Notes under the pieces: generated by a model
What the model saw: the letters and a program-made list of their open reading frames with translations, nothing else
Databases searched by the model: none
What the model was told of the DNA's origin: nothing
Made by a program: the position numbers and the translations under genes
Virus record (IMG/VR): IMGVR_UViG_3300006332_000020
Coordinates: 1 to 22,119 of that record
Source of the DNA: a virus
Strand: one strand, 5' to 3'
Length of the DNA stretch: 22,119 nucleotides
Part shown: positions 10,398 through 22,119 of the stretch, in pieces
How positions within the stretch are numbered: the stretch's first letter is position 1
Layout: every line of letters starts with the position of its first letter

Positions 10398-10696
10398 TTG
10401 AATGTAAACCTCCGTTGTTTAAATGCTTCTTTCAATGTACTAAATATATACACCAGTTGCTCTGAATCCATGCCTCCCTCATGTACTTTAGTATGGCAAG
10501 TATAACACATAGGCATCGTCAACCAATCATCTACCTTTACTGACATGCCTCCACCTCTAATGTTATGAGGTAACAACTTACTCTTTAGATGATGGGCGAC
10601 CACAGTACCATCCTCCGTACCACAGTTGGCGCATGGTAATGTAGCCACCCAATCAGTGTACTTCTTCTGCTTCCATCTGATATCTTTTTCTAGCAT
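10394..10696 (-). CDS. Ref-like (DUF968-type) HNH zinc-finger nuclease
   Basis: The 100-residue product has two paired metal ligand sets, C22-x2-C25 and C64-x2-C67-H68 with H72, around an Ala-His-His motif (34-36). This is the arrangement of Ref-type HNH proteins, including the phage P1 recombination enhancement function, a RecA-dependent nuclease. The His-His pair would supply the catalytic His. Length and motif order match short phage members without the long N-terminal DNA-binding arm of P1 Ref. The ATG overlaps the stop of the 39-residue membrane peptide gene (TAATG). Its place among recombination genes supports a DNA-nicking role. Confidence 0.78.
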   Translation of the reverse strand: MLEKDIRWKQKKYTDWVATLPCANCGTEDGTVVAHHLKSKLLPHNIRGGGMSVKVDDWLTMPMCYTCHTKVHEGGMDSEQLVYIFSTLKEAFKQRRFTFK

Positions 10697-14872: not shown

Positions 14873-15022
14873 ATGGAACTTAACCACAAGGCTCAAGCCA
14901 AGTTCAAACGACAGCAGAAACGCAACCTAGTAGCCAAGCATCACAAACCCAAGGCTCACTATCACAAACCTAGAACAGCGTACAAGCGTGTGAAGTTTGA
15001 CCATCACTTAGAGACTGATTGA
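14873..15022 (+). CDS. 49-residue highly basic protein on the opposite strand
   Basis: The ATG at 14873 follows AGAGGAAAA at normal spacing. The 49-residue product is almost entirely Lys, Arg, His and Gln (KAQAKFKRQQKRNLVAKHH at 6-24), ending with a short acidic tip. It resembles the tiny basic proteins found in many phage early regions, which are presumed to bind nucleic acid. It is encoded against the direction of its neighbours and its last 19 bases overlap the 3' end of the ArdC-like gene. It probably has its own promoter in the upstream gap. Too short for a firm family call. Confidence 0.68.
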   Translation: MELNHKAQAKFKRQQKRNLVAKHHKPKAHYHKPRTAYKRVKFDHHLETD

Positions 15023-15933
15023 TCCAGACCAGCCAGCATTTGGAATCCCTTACTTGCTTCAGCGGCGGCACTGAATAGGAATGATGTATCATCCTTCAGT
15101 TTAGTCAGCCATGTCTGGAGATACTGTGTATGCTGTAGTTTCTCAAGCGGTATGCCTACATATTGGCAGGTCATAGCCGCTCCCAACTCAGCAACCAGTT
15201 CCTCATAAGCATAAGCCGCATCACCAAACCTGCTACCACGCTTCCTGTCTAGCCTGTGCTTGGCTCCTGTAGCATGGACACCTTCATGTGCCTTGGTTGA
15301 TTCACGCTCATGCTCACAGGTAAATGCGCTGTCATTAGGTAGCCCTATCGTGTCATCCATCGGACGGTAGAACGCCATGTCACCACCACGATGAACGCCT
15401 CCCTTTAGATTCAGGTTGGTAAGGTACTTATCTATCTCAGTCTTGGGATCGAAGTCATCACCCATAGCAACCTTAACCTCTGGTAGTTCGTGACCACATG
15501 ACACAATCTGTTCACGGTTCCAGACCTTATAAGTCTTGGCTAATGGCATCATCTTTTCCTTGCCTGTATCCTTATCATTAATCTTAATAGGCTTCCAGAA
15601 TAGAATGTTTCTGCCCTCAAGGAACACCTCTTTAGATAGAGGCATATCAGAACCAGTGAGTTTCTTTATCTGATTCAGCGTGTAGTAATCAGGCGACTCA
15701 TAACTAACCAACAAGTTAAGCAGGAACCAGTTACATCCATTGTAAGGACGCTTAGATACTCCGTTCATAGCCATCACAGGCTGAAGAGTATTGGTTGTAC
15801 CGTCATCTTTCCAAGGTCTAAACCAAGGATTCCATGGTGCAGGTAGCCCTGCCTCAATGGCTTTCTTATACTCCGTAAGGTTAGCAACGACAGAATCCCT
15901 TACCTCATTCGCTATCTTGTCAGGTACTTTCAT
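15004..15933 (-). CDS. ArdC-like zincin domain protein (putative antirestriction)
   Basis: The 309-residue product has the two-part layout of ArdC: an N-terminal domain (about 1-150) with PWFRPW, the PYNGCNWFLLN segment and an FWKPIK strand typical of the ssDNA-binding half, and a C-terminal zincin-like domain. In the latter, His216-Glu217-x2-His220 (HEGVH) and downstream Glu244-Glu245 with Glu249 (YEELVAELGAA) form the expected metal site, with His226 close by. Plasmid ArdC proteins protect incoming DNA from restriction. For the phage version this role is inferred. AGGAG precedes the ATG. Its stop lies inside the antisense basic-protein gene. Confidence 0.85.
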   Translation of the reverse strand: MKVPDKIANEVRDSVVANLTEYKKAIEAGLPAPWNPWFRPWKDDGTTNTLQPVMAMNGVSKRPYNGCNWFLLNLLVSYESPDYYTLNQIKKLTGSDMPLSKEVFLEGRNILFWKPIKINDKDTGKEKMMPLAKTYKVWNREQIVSCGHELPEVKVAMGDDFDPKTEIDKYLTNLNLKGGVHRGGDMAFYRPMDDTIGLPNDSAFTCEHERESTKAHEGVHATGAKHRLDRKRGSRFGDAAYAYEELVAELGAAMTCQYVGIPLEKLQHTQYLQTWLTKLKDDTSFLFSAAAEASKGFQMLAGLDQSVSK

Positions 15934-17763: not shown

Positions 17764-18417
17764 TTAGATGATCAGGAGTTTCAGTAGTTTGCAGTCACCT
17801 AAACTGGCGACAAGACCTCTACTCTTACGCTGTCGATCAACCGCCTTCTTAGCGAAGCCACTCAGTTTCACCTTGAACGCATCAGGTAAAGGCACTGGCT
17901 GTGCATTAGCAACCATAGCCTCGACAATGAAGATCAATTCCGATCCGAGTTCTTCAAACTCTGAGCAATTATCCTTATGCTCCTCTTCAAGACACTCTAG
18001 AACAAAGGCTTCAGCCTCCGCTTCAGTCTTGAACTCGTCTCGGACTTCGCCGACCAACTCTGCGATATCTTTCTTACTCGGCGGTGTGAAGTCCATCTTC
18101 ACCAGATACTCCAGAGATTTTTCCAAGGTCGGCTTCGGCAAATTCAGAGACTGGATAATAAAAGCGTACTTATTCAGTTCTTCCCAAGGATTATACTCCT
18201 CAGTCTTTCCAGACTGGTCAAGAAGCCAATCCTCCATCTCTGTATTTACCGAATCTTCCCATTCGGCTCTGCTATCCACAGTTGGCTCGACCTGCGGGAC
18301 TACATACCGCTTCGCTATGCTCTTGGCATATCCGAGGGCAGAGCAATTTGCAGAGCCTTGGGCGCTGAAACCAACCATATACTTCACTTCCAACAGTTTA
18401 GATAATGTATCTTGCAT
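17764..18417 (-). CDS. Isolated early protein of unknown function with its own terminator
   Basis: The start is set at the ATG at 18417, eight bases after AGGAG. The frame is open further upstream to 18561, but that part runs through hairpin-rich non-coding sequence and has no signal. The 217-residue product is acidic in the middle (TEAEAEAFVLECLEEEHKDN), helical, and ends in a basic segment (FAKKAVDRQRKSRG) before a hydrophobic tail. No motif is recognised. Its base composition looks more GC-rich than the genes on either side. It is the gene nearest to the structured region, runs divergently from the late operon, and has a private terminator, which suggests separate and perhaps abundant or immediate expression. 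Confidence 0.68.
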   Translation of the reverse strand: MQDTLSKLLEVKYMVGFSAQGSANCSALGYAKSIAKRYVVPQVEPTVDSRAEWEDSVNTEMEDWLLDQSGKTEEYNPWEELNKYAFIIQSLNLPKPTLEKSLEYLVKMDFTPPSKKDIAELVGEVRDEFKTEAEAEAFVLECLEEEHKDNCSEFEELGSELIFIVEAMVANAQPVPLPDAFKVKLSGFAKKAVDRQRKSRGLVASLGDCKLLKLLII

Positions 18418-18501
18418 TTTAGATTCTCCTAGAATCATATTTAGTAGACTGAATTGCCTACACCTTTTCTTTCCAGCAGGTAAAGACTGAGTAGTCAAGA
18501 C

Positions 18502-18522
18502 CGAGGCTGTTGTATCGCCTCG
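18502..18522. repeat. Loop-repeat hairpin 1 (loop TGTTGTATC)
   Basis: A perfect 6-bp stem (CGAGGC with GCCTCG) closes the 9-base loop TGTTGTATC. The same loop recurs in hairpins at 19113-19131 and 19152-19168, while the stem sequences differ. It lies at the tip of the nested helical domain at 18464-18582. Confidence 0.65.
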
Positions 18523-18789
18523 CCTTGGGTAGTCTTTACTTCTCAGGCTACCTGCTATCATTATCGAGCGCGGAAAAGAAAGAAGATCGGAGAGTGCCGT
18601 ATCGTTTTCTCCGCATCTTCGTGCAATTAACCGGAACCCTTAAGGGCTTGTCCCGTAGGGTTTCGATCTGATTAGCGAGGCAGAGTAGGCAAGTTAGTTA
18701 GTTGTTATAAACCAGATAGCAGTCCCGAGCCGCATCCGGCGAAGACTGCTTCCCTTGGGCACGGATCGCAGGTAGCCGTTAGTAAAAAG

Positions 18790-18805
18790 AGGCGACTTGT
18801 CGCCT
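18790..18805. repeat. Hairpin copy 2: GCGACTTGTCGC element
   Basis: AGGCGA pairs with TCGCCT around CTTG, extended by a G-T pair (18789 with 18806). The 12-base core is identical to the hairpin at 17690-17705, with the outer pair changed from T-A to G-C. That change preserves pairing. Confidence 0.6.
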
Positions 18806-18998
18806 TCCAGTGTAATCTCGTAGAGCCGTATCCGGCTCAGAGATTAGGCGTAGAAGGATTGGCGTTTGTTCGCCACATCCTGTCCGAGAACCTAGCCGTC
18901 ACGCGAGAGGCAAGAACCTCTGGTTCGGCCGGAGGCGAGCCTTTAGGCGGTTAAAAAGAGTCGAAGAGCATTATCCGCTGTTCGGAAAGTTATCGCGG

Positions 18999-19028
18999 TT
19001 GACCTATTACTTTAAGAATTCCTATGAT
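18999..19028 (+). promoter_or_regulatory. Sigma70-like promoter candidate, plus strand
   Basis: TTGACC (18999-19004) and TATGAT (19023-19028) each match 5 of 6 consensus bases, with an 18-base spacer. Transcription would start near 19035 and run through two loop-repeat hairpins into the 502-residue gene and terS/terL. It is the best consensus promoter I found in the window, and the likeliest late-operon promoter. Confidence 0.5.
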
Positions 19029-19112
19029 ACAATCATATGATTCACATAGAGAGATATAGTTCTTTCTGTCTCTTGTCGTTGCGTTAGGGATTGAAGCCCT
19101 TTAGGGTGAAGA

Positions 19113-19131
19113 CTCGCTGTTGTATCGCGAG
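19113..19131. repeat. Loop-repeat hairpin 2 (loop TGTTGTATC)
   Basis: CTCGC pairs with GCGAG around the 9-base loop TGTTGTATC, which is identical to the loop at 18508-18516. An outer helix, GTGAA (19106-19110) with TTCAC (19138-19142), encloses it. Confidence 0.65.
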
Positions 19132-19151
19132 GCTGAATTCACGAAAGCCCG

Positions 19152-19168
19152 ACCCAGTTGTATCGGGT
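19152..19168. repeat. Loop-repeat hairpin 3 (loop AGTTGTATC)
   Basis: ACCC pairs with GGGT around the 9-base loop AGTTGTATC, which differs from copies 1 and 2 only in its first base. It lies 20 bases after hairpin 2, in the leader of the putative late transcript. Confidence 0.58.
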
Positions 19169-19320
19169 AACGCCCAGTTAGCCTTGGATGATGTCCTCCT
19201 CCCACACACACACGGACTCCTGAGCATCCACAGCGTTGATGAGACTCGGCTGTAATGCCTCGTCTCTCTCTTGATGGCTACTAGGGCATAGAATACATAT
19301 ATGGTAGTGATAAGGCTACC

Positions 19321-19419
19321 CCACCCCAAACAAAAAAATAATATATATATATGTTCTCCCCATACAGCGGTGGGTATTTAGAGCATTTATAAGAAAACAC
19401 TAATATTAGGAGTACACTG
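19321..19419. other. AT-rich leader before the late operon
   Basis: The stretch holds an A-run (19332-19338), an alternating TA run at about 19339-19352, and the perfect palindrome CTAATATTAG at 19400-19409, which ends next to the AGGAG ribosome-binding site of the 502-residue gene. A TTTATAAG at 19386-19393 is a weak promoter -10 candidate. No open reading frame is supported here. Confidence 0.45.
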
Positions 19420-20928
19420 ATGATTGGATTTGGCATGGATGGCAATGTTATGGGAGGACCGGGAGCCTTTGGTTCACCCGGAGCATTAAGTGGTGGAGGA
19501 GGCTGGGGTACTATTCCCGGACCTCTTGATAATATTGAAGACCCAGCCATTCAAGATGCTGTTGCTAGAGCAGTATTAGGAATTGACCAGTCTGGAAATC
19601 CACAGGATATTGGTCAGTCTATAGGAAACCTTGAACAAGCCCTGAACATGAGTATTAATCCGACTCTTGCGGTAACTAATCCGGCTCAGGCTTATAGAAA
19701 TATAGAGAACATAGCCACCCATCATCCACGAGGACCATTGGGAGCGGCTAGTCAAATAATGTCAGGATTTGTTCCCGGCCTTACACAAGGATATAATTTT
19801 AGTGAAGCATTAGGCAATATTATTGGAGGAAATATTGCTAACTTTCAAGATGATCCTTCTAAAAAGTCAATGCGACAGGCTATGGCTACAGATGTTATGA
19901 GCGGTTTATTGGGAAATCCTAACGCTATAAATATGAATGAGGCTATGGATTTTGCAACAGTAGCAAACTTTGTAAATCAAAATGACAAAAACACTTCTTT
20001 AAATTATGATGAAAATGGAAATTTAATTGGATTTACAGAGGCTCCTATAGAAAATTTTGGAGTAGGAACAACCGTAACCTTTGATGACGATACTCCTTAT
20101 GGTTATCAAGGTCCAGTATCCGTCCCTTTAATGGGCAATATTCCTTTGGGAGTTAATCCTTTAAGTCCTATCCTAGATGTTCTAGATAATATAGAACTTG
20201 AAGAATATCAGGATAATCCTAATCCTGCATTTCCTAATTTCCAAAACTTTATAAATAGAACATTTTTTAGTCAAGATAATAATGTAGAACCTTCTATAGA
20301 ATTATATGATCCTCCAACGCTAACCGATCCCGGCTCAACTTTAGATTTTAATAATCCCGGATACCAGTCAATATTTGAAGGAATTGAGGTTAATCCAGTT
20401 ATGGATTCAGACCTTGAAGGTGTAGAAGGCTTGATGGAGGCTGGAGGATTTTTGGGTGGTGGTAGCGGAGTAATTGGACCTGACTTTGACCAAGGAGCAG
20501 TATCACAAGAAGGTGGTGAAGCACTACAGGAAGCCATAGCCCAGAGAGTCGCAGAGACTATTATTGCACAACAGGCGGCAAGACAGGTAACTCCACAATC
20601 GAATAAAGTTACTATTCCAGTATCCAGCGGTCCTGATATTGTTATTGACGTTACGCCACCAGAGCCTGTAAGAAGTAGACCAGTACACCCAGAAGTAGAA
20701 CAAAGAAACCCAAGTGACTCTCCTATACGAATCGCGGCTAAGACAATAGCCAAACCAAAAGCATTTAAGAAACTGCCTAAGTTTGTTCAAAAATCATTAA
20801 GGCAAGGTAAAATTCCTGACGGTATGAAATCTTACCATAGTGATATGGTATCAGAATATCTTGCGCGTACCCGAGAACCAGTATGGCAACCGGGTTCAAA
20901 AGGTAGACCTGCGGATGCAACTAGATGA
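19420..20928 (+). CDS. Low-complexity putative virion or packaging-associated protein
   Basis: The 502-residue product starts with a Gly/Pro-rich disordered segment (about 8-35). A helical Ala/Asn-rich region follows (45-190), then a long acidic Asn/Pro/Asp-rich middle (195-340), a Gln/Ala helix near 370-392, a Pro-rich linker (415-440), and a Lys/Arg-rich C-terminus (445-502). AGGAG precedes the ATG at good spacing. Its stop overlaps terS as ATGA. The reverse strand carries long open frames here, which I treat as shadows because this frame has the ribosome-binding site and the coupling. Disordered ends with a basic tail suit a scaffold-like or DNA-contacting role, but no family is recognised. 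Confidence 0.7.
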   Translation: MIGFGMDGNVMGGPGAFGSPGALSGGGGWGTIPGPLDNIEDPAIQDAVARAVLGIDQSGNPQDIGQSIGNLEQALNMSINPTLAVTNPAQAYRNIENIATHHPRGPLGAASQIMSGFVPGLTQGYNFSEALGNIIGGNIANFQDDPSKKSMRQAMATDVMSGLLGNPNAINMNEAMDFATVANFVNQNDKNTSLNYDENGNLIGFTEAPIENFGVGTTVTFDDDTPYGYQGPVSVPLMGNIPLGVNPLSPILDVLDNIELEEYQDNPNPAFPNFQNFINRTFFSQDNNVEPSIELYDPPTLTDPGSTLDFNNPGYQSIFEGIEVNPVMDSDLEGVEGLMEAGGFLGGGSGVIGPDFDQGAVSQEGGEALQEAIAQRVAETIIAQQAARQVTPQSNKVTIPVSSGPDIVIDVTPPEPVRSRPVHPEVEQRNPSDSPIRIAAKTIAKPKAFKKLPKFVQKSLRQGKIPDGMKSYHSDMVSEYLARTREPVWQPGSKGRPADATR

Positions 20929-21296
20929 CAGAAAAACAAGACAAATTTATAGAAACATACGTCCTTACTGGTAACGCCACTAAAGCGGCTATCGCGGCTG
21001 GGTATTCTGAAAAGACTGCCAAAAGCAAAGGATACCAACTAAAGAACCAACTGCATCCTGAAATACAAAAGGAAGTGCAGAAGGTTATTGCTGATAAGAT
21101 TCCGGCCAGTCTTATGTGGTTGACCGACCTTGCGGAAAAGGCTGAGTCTGAATCTGTCAGATTGGGAGCCATTAAAGATATCCTTGACCGCGCTGGACTT
21201 AAACCAGTAGACAAGGTAGAAACCACCAACATCGACCAAATGAGTAAAGAAGAGATCATTCGGGAGTTAGAGGCACTTGAAAGGCTTAAGCACTGA
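20925..21296 (+). CDS. terS: Terminase small subunit
   Basis: The 123-residue product matches the Terminase_2-type small subunit: an N-terminal KQDKFIETYVLTGNATKAA (4-22) followed by IAAGYS and KTAKSKGYQL, which forms the DNA-binding HTH, then a helical oligomerisation region and an acidic C-terminus. Small terminases bind the packaging site and deliver it to the motor. The gene is joined to its upstream neighbour by ATGA and overlaps terL by 20 bases in another frame. Length is typical. Confidence 0.9.
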   Translation: MTEKQDKFIETYVLTGNATKAAIAAGYSEKTAKSKGYQLKNQLHPEIQKEVQKVIADKIPASLMWLTDLAEKAESESVRLGAIKDILDRAGLKPVDKVETTNIDQMSKEEIIRELEALERLKH

Positions 21297-22119
21297 ACAG
21301 TACCGTAAAGAGTTAGAATTAAAACAGGCTCTGAGAAGCCTTGTACGCTTCTCTCGCATTGACGAGTACGACCCTTACCCATACCAGCAGAAGTTCCATA
21401 AAACAGGCTCAGAGGCCAACCAGAGGCTTCTGATGGCGGCTAACCGTATTGGGAAGTCTTTTTCCGGTGCGGCAGAGATGAGTTACCATCTAACAGGTTT
21501 ATATCCTGACTGGTGGGAAGGCAGACGGTACGATAATCCCATCACCGCTTGGGCGGGTGGGGTTTCAAACGAAACAACTAGAGACATTGTACAATACGAA
21601 CTATTGGGTTCCCCAGATGATCCTGATGCGTTTGGGTCCGGTGCGATACCTAAAAGTAAAATTATAAAAACGGAACGTAAACCGGGTGTACCCAACGCAA
21701 AAAGTGTTGCTCTTATACAACACGTTACGGGCGGGAACTCTTCTTTACACTTCAAAGCCTATGAAATGGGTGTGGATAAGTGGCAGGGACGCAGTGTAGA
21801 CTGTATATGGCTTGACGAAGAACCATCAAGAGAGTTATATTCACAGGCTGTAACCCGAACACTGGACCGTAAAGGCATGGTTTACATGACATTTACACCA
21901 GAATCGGGCATGACTGAGACTGTTGCATCGTTTATGAACAACCTACAGCCCGGTCAATCCTTGACAAACGCTACTTGGGATGACGCTTCAGAGGCAATTA
22001 CCTCCATGAAAGGTAATTCAGGCCATCTAAATGAGTCTGTTATGGCACAGATTCTCTCCAGTTACTCCCCACATGAGAGAGAAATGAGGCGATATGGCCG
22101 TCCCAGCATTGGTTCCGGC
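21277..22119 (+). CDS. terL: Terminase large subunit, N-terminal part (cut by window edge)
   Basis: The frame is open to the window end (281 codons). An adenine-binding YPYQQKF motif (residues 34-40) is followed by Walker A ANRIGKS (55-61), Walker B CIWLDEE (176-182) and a coupling motif MTFTPESG (204-211): the complete ATPase signature of a DNA-packaging motor. The nuclease half lies beyond the window. A TAG at 21268-21270 blocks extension and the first ATG (21433) would remove the adenine motif, so the start is most likely the TTG at 21277, preceded by GGGAG and AGAGG. Confidence 0.9.
   Translation, partial: MKGLSTEQYRKELELKQALRSLVRFSRIDEYDPYPYQQKFHKTGSEANQRLLMAANRIGKSFSGAAEMSYHLTGLYPDWWEGRRYDNPITAWAGGVSNETTRDIVQYELLGSPDDPDAFGSGAIPKSKIIKTERKPGVPNAKSVALIQHVTGGNSSLHFKAYEMGVDKWQGRSVDCIWLDEEPSRELYSQAVTRTLDRKGMVYMTFTPESGMTETVASFMNNLQPGQSLTNATWDDASEAITSMKGNSGHLNESVMAQILSSYSPHEREMRRYGRPSIGSG

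Follow-up and report, generated by a model that had tools for sequence, protein, structure and literature searches.

A gene-free stretch of a 22,119-nt viral sequence (IMG/VR record IMGVR_UViG_3300006332_000020, hereafter the window) carries a 96-nt structured element, E, which belongs to a covarying family of plasmids and phages and is apparently a conserved element not previously described. The surrounding region is probably a phage genome end together with the entry region on its early side, rather than one RNA, with E acting on single-stranded DNA (ssDNA). The gap, from 18418 to 19419, contains no convincing gene and only short spurious open reading frames (ORFs), and a tRNA search of it found none. 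The reading that fits best is a mosaic, set between divergent early (minus-strand) and late (plus-strand) genes, of a terminus, a promoter, a conserved element and a lineage-specific hairpin array. The features are as follows.

15004 to 15933, minus strand: ArdC-type anti-restriction gene of the early module (Pfam ArdcN and MPTase-PolyVal; PHROGs anti-restriction protein)
17764 to 18417, minus strand: first early gene, 217 aa, of no known family, reading away from the gap (ORF list)
18464 to 18990, strand not assigned: hairpin array holding the bulk of the folding signal (z -8.7)
18477 to 18556, strand not assigned: long hairpin with cap TGTTGTATC, read from the sequence by eye
18999 to 19028, plus strand: predicted sigma-70-like promoter, TTGACC-18-TATGAT, reading right (promoter scan)
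19080 to 19175, plus strand: element E, 96 nt (model R1, 68 bits (68.2), E 2e-16)
19192/19193, no strand: predicted terminase cut GAT^GTCC, late-side genome end (contig starts and LUZ24/tf comparison)
about 19193 to 19374, no strand: putative direct terminal repeat of 182 bp with motif B (CACACACACACG) at one end and motif C (CTCCCCATACAGCGGTGGG) at the other
19420 to 20928, plus strand: first ORF of the late genes, 502 aa, which evolves fast among relatives (ORF list)
20925 to 21296, plus strand: terminase small subunit (PHROGs)
21286 to 22119, plus strand: terminase large subunit (TerL), incomplete at the window end, 49-56% identical to those of Baldr, Vibrio phages, tf and relatives

E was first seen through L053, a distant relative that has it when nearer ones do not. 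The core pattern taken from the window and L053 was used to search bacterial genomes, where it found 69 stretches, most of them alike far beyond the pattern. Model R1, built from 35 sequences with the window and L053 among them, matches the window over all 91 positions, scores 79 bits on L053 (a training sequence) and also matches outsiders that were not in the training set, namely F, plasmids L178-L182 and most IMG/VR hits. The consensus reads GCGTnAGGGATTGAAGCCC-GAA-GGGnnGAGAC-hairpin-GGCTC...CGAAAGCCCGnCC-hairpin-GGGnACGCCC. Part of the invariance in this consensus is built in, since the search itself picked the opening core and the alignment required CGAAAGCCC and the closing GCC segments; neither step selected the variable stems. 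The covariation score is 0.240, versus 0.058 for shuffled alignments and at most 0.081 with slid partners, 96.7% of cells are paired versus 85.2% after shuffling, and an alignment-free pairing count gives 95% versus 61%. Compensatory base changes occur in the stems of the family, and in the window two pairs of helix 4 are broken, off the consensus. The nested consensus is recovered more fully with DNA folding parameters than with RNA ones. E is absent from Rfam 15, and an Rfam search of representative E loci gave no match, HEARO included, which excludes a HEARO/IscB omega RNA. A literature search that largely covered papers outside subscription yielded no description of E as such and no occurrence of the core string. 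Within the first searched set of relatives, R1 matched only the window and L053, and later matches from the same lineage were L186 and L211. Most relatives keep the genome-end motifs and are without E, which is therefore optional.

The distribution of E is wide. One consensus query found it in 1536 of 72,556 plasmids, 1343 of these 1536 being conjugative, and the same query found none in 50,697 phage records. Where plasmids are annotated, the neighbours of E are leading-region genes (DUF932, SSB, StbABC, ParB, RadC), between which it occupies gene-free stretches. Its strand in plasmids is constant: all copies are on one strand in L176, L178, L180 and F, and in L183, whose leading region extends rightward from stb, all four are on the plus strand regardless of gene direction (stb and sprT face right, the other genes left). 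Since oriT usually lies beside stbA, E in plasmids would be on the transferred strand, as judged in L183 from that usual position rather than from a mapped nick. R1 finds two copies in the F plasmid, at 58091-58173 and 63479-63561 on the minus strand (66.6 and 53.9 bits), each 470 bases from the next annotated gene and within a 559-nt repeat (89% identity). These two copies fit the positions of Frpo2 and Frpo1, which have been described as 92% identical, about 5 kb apart and upstream of ygeA and ssb (PMC9849209). In IMG/VR, 30 contigs have the E core. Four of them (L192, L194, L208, L210) are Microviridae, as recognised by capsid or Rep families or by gene content, and have E on the coding (viral) strand; several others are tailed phages (L200, L202, L203, L212), with E at the early/late junction adjoining the terminase. 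Some double-stranded DNA (dsDNA) viral records, L190 (record G029), L185 and L196, have 4 to 9 copies on both strands, and such multicopy occurrence in some dsDNA-phage records weakens a strict strand rule. As the transferred strand of a plasmid and the genome of a microvirus are both ssDNA, we infer that E acts on ssDNA.

The anatomy around E in the window resembles that of plasmids. F and L180 show, along one strand, a gene start, then 0.5-1 kb of gene-free hairpin array (z -7.1 in L180), then E at the far end; the order in the window is likewise the early gene start at 18417, the array, and E at 19080-19175. Only E is homologous in sequence, and the rest is resemblance. E is on the plus strand with the early genes, including ArdC, on the minus strand at its left, as in plasmids, and the early end may be the one that enters first. 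ArdC is itself a typical gene of plasmid leading regions. A close parallel is offered by Frpo1/Frpo2 of F: both repeats contain E on the transferred strand, with about 470 nt separating it from the next annotated gene, and E lies at the far end of a gene-free hairpin array. The phage array shares no sequence with F outside E and has no promoter boxes in its stems. A search of the minus strand of 18300-19500 for a -35/-10 pair leading into the early genes found none, only 8-of-12 matches, which gives no ground for calling E in the window an Frpo promoter. Nor is E the Frpo hairpin itself: ColIb-P9, for which Frpo-like sites have been described, is without E, and the long hairpin of F lies elsewhere in the repeat. 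A further similarity is with the CUP elements of IncN leading regions: in one IncN plasmid an E-like copy (44.6 bits) lies between stbC and the next leading gene. CUP itself has been described as a promoter repeat with an ArdK site (PMC5371602). E also resembles the complementary-strand origins of ssDNA phages of the G4 type and the sso of rolling-circle plasmids and ICEs in being a structured, strand-specific site on a single-stranded form (PMC4595007). A G4-type origin was considered and set aside, R1 matching neither G4 nor phiX174.

We propose the following explanation for the region. The terminase would cut concatemers at GAY^RTC (19192/19193 in the window) and again at about 19374, close to where motif C ends, which would leave about 182 bp as a direct terminal repeat. 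E would then sit on the plus strand directly inside the repeat, on its early side, with the hairpin array between E and the first leftward early gene; in the window 17 nt lie between it and the inferred repeat, and its strand is the one with its 3' end at that genome end. The early end might become single-stranded by incomplete lagging-strand synthesis or 5' resection, which would expose E, and such exposure in a dsDNA phage is conjecture. Once single-stranded, E may act as a start site for the complementary strand or for early RNA, of the ssi or ssDNA-promoter type. The membership of E in its family, its covariation, its placement and its strand are observations, and the biochemical role, an ssDNA priming or promoter site, is suggested by them. 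A broader idea, which we advance tentatively and would not yet bet on, is that E is a general, uncatalogued ssDNA entry element of conjugative plasmids, ssDNA phages and dsDNA tailed phages that starts complementary-strand synthesis or very early transcription. If this is true, one recognisable 90-nt fold marks where invading replicons, F, Microviridae and marine tailed phages among them, first use ssDNA, and leading-region biology gains a searchable signature. E beside a terminal repeat would likewise point to a dsDNA phage whose early genome end passes through a functional single-stranded stage, leaving the puzzle of why such a phage keeps E beside its packaging end.

Two other explanations for E have to be weighed. 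First, E could function as RNA, in the leader of a late operon transcribed from the plus-strand promoter at 18999-19028, as a cis-regulatory or antitermination element. That site is the best of the promoter scan, in which the number of sites is no higher than in shuffles; it lies in a conserved promoter-like block (block A, 18993-19081) directly upstream of E, E is on the transcribed plus strand, and in the IncN plasmid L175 the next gene after E is close by and reads the same way. We nevertheless regard this possibility as unlikely, because block A is conserved without E in L004, L005, L010, L012 and L014, because the orientation of E in plasmids is constant whatever the direction of the neighbouring gene, and because in bacterial contigs the genes to the right of E mostly face against it (37 of 47, by rough ORF calling). 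Second, E could be a small palindromic element, mobile or selfish, which recombination has spread among plasmids and phages and which has no role for its host replicon. Several copies per replicon, patchy presence and a wide host range would fit such an element. This strikes us as improbable in view of the compensatory changes and near-invariant joining segments across very distant hosts, the fixed strand in plasmids and the repeated adjacency to leading or early genes. We retain a site acting on ssDNA as the preferred reading of E.

A genome end is also predicted next to E. Relatives were collected as 45 IMG/VR loci found through the terminase small subunit, and when their gaps were aligned only the right part proved conserved, as block A, motif B and motif C. 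Motif B, GAYRTCC-N-CACACACACACG, starts at 19190, and motif C, composed of CCCACCCC, an AT-rich run and CTCCCCATACAGCGGWGGG, extends to 19374. Four contigs (L003, L079, L051, L243) have the homologous base of motif B as their very first base, and a fifth (L007) starts one base earlier; these contigs are independent and divergent in sequence. The annotated terminal repeats of LUZ24 (184 bp) and tf (186 bp) start, in late orientation, with ...GGGAT^ATTCC and ...GGGAT^ATCTC, and a GAY^RTC site homologous to the LUZ24-type GGAT^AT start is present where the contigs begin. Across 29 distinct B-C segments the cut site is mostly GAT^RTC, GAC^RTC or TAT^ATC, often within a dyad GGAY^RTCC; the segments measure 112-340 bp (182 bp in the window) and have a variable interior. 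The dyad of the predicted cut site extends to perfect palindromes in L035 (GGACGTCC) and L053 (GGATATCC). The similarities to LUZ24 and tf comprise a location close to the terminase genes where the early and late modules diverge, the GGGAT^AT start, the repeat length and a related TerL, the nearest matches to the window's TerL coming from Baldr, Vibrio phages and the tf group. The differences are that the repeat is inferred in the window's group, ranges from about 112 to 340 bp among relatives, has a CA run after the cut and in the window adjoins E, which LUZ24 and the tf ends lack. Pelagibacter phage Baldr has both motifs upstream of its late genes. The left cut at 19192/19193 is thus well supported, its position being predicted from these comparisons, and 19193-19374 is a probable direct terminal repeat, of which the window, an assembled fragment, contains one copy. 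The right boundary near 19374 is suggested by similarity to LUZ24/tf and by length, no contig ending at motif C.

That the B-C segment is instead a late promoter or operator region is very improbable. It lies directly upstream of the late operon, is present once per contig and is AT-rich before motif C; but independent contigs start exactly at motif B, position and motif are identical to those of the annotated LUZ24/tf repeats, and the length stays near theirs while the interior varies. Motif C is not a repeated phage promoter, having one copy per contig. A pairing of the CCCCACCCC run with GGWGGG of motif C was also considered and dropped, since by eye relatives do not keep it. If the terminal repeat is accepted, the rule GAY^RTC ... 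CACACACACACG offers a simple way to locate the genome ends of this marine phage group from contigs. Two observations were made in other phages. In Baldr, an unannotated match to the terminase small subunit (L092 39020-39319) immediately precedes motifs B and C. For phages of the L064 and L069 type, a B-like motif (L064 8799-8819) and motif C (10462-10488) are separated by about 1.7 kb, which might be a longer terminal repeat.

The remainder of the gap is dominated by hairpins. The initial annotation, which had described dense hairpins in a gene-free stretch, was right on both counts. Folding of 18450-19330 gives z = -6.9 on the plus strand and -7.0 on the minus strand against shuffles, and the signal is unique to the gap within the window, 18464-19163 giving z = -7.6 when twelve other 700-nt windows give 0.3 to -2.0. 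The helices that it singled out are present in the minimum free energy structure, 18582-18620 with 12 pairs and one bulge and 18814-18845 with two stacked 6-bp stems. Because z is nearly equal on the two strands, folding alone can select neither a strand nor RNA over DNA; the plus strand proposed earlier is the informative one for the covarying 19080-19175. The signal is also uneven, falling from z = -8.7 in the array (18464-18990) to -3.4 at 19037-19192 and -0.55 at 19193-19374.

The proposal that the whole 0.86 kb is a divergent or new large ornate phage RNA of the GOLLD/ROOL type, working as RNA, hardly survives: the folding far stronger than in shuffles, the lack of genes and the promoter-like plus-strand site favour it, but no Rfam family matched the gap convincingly at gathering or permissive thresholds, close relatives have other sequence in place of the left 0.5 kb, the right part is a probable genome terminus and z is equal on both strands. 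The gap does resemble GOLLD, ROOL and HEARO in being gene-free, hairpin-rich and phage-borne; unlike them, it matches none of their covariance models and we found no common anatomy. What stands of the large structured element first envisaged is a conserved covarying structure confined to 19080-19175, where comparison of homologues gives a strong signal. The array itself offers no such comparison, since only two differences separate the window from L012 between 18565 and 19020.

The left array is lineage-specific. It is common to L012 (94%) and partly to L005, and unrelated sequence takes its place in L004, L010, L014 and L015. Neither a blastn search of the gap against phage records nor a comparison of the array with plasmids gave a match. 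The gaps of relatives are mostly without a dense array (z 0.15 in L004, -1.0 in L010, -1.7 in L014, 0.4 in L053), only L012 (z -4.0) and L015 (z -3.5) being clearly structured. The outer stem of the hairpin at 18477-18556 appears to be kept with different letters, GCAGGTA/TACCTGC in the window and GCATGG/CCATGC in L012 and L005, in a by-eye reading of a stem that the automatic alignment misplaces.

The genes that flank the gap complete the picture. The product of the first early gene has no PHROGs or Pfam match and a relative in L095 that is 91% identical, and the window also encodes a PD-(D/E)XK nuclease. Upstream of the early gene, at 18436-18463 on the minus strand, a motif GTGTAGGCAAT...GTCTAC is common to the window and the distant L059 and is perhaps an early operator. 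The ORFs between the putative terminus and the terminase small subunit (19420-20928 and its counterparts) are strongly divergent among close relatives, like a hypervariable cargo slot. Finally, a 9-nt hairpin loop, WGTTGTATC or a sequence differing from it by one letter, caps unrelated stems at 18506-18518, 19116-19128 and 19152-19165 in the window, as well as in relatives L015, L053 and L057 and, once in the opposite orientation, in L056.
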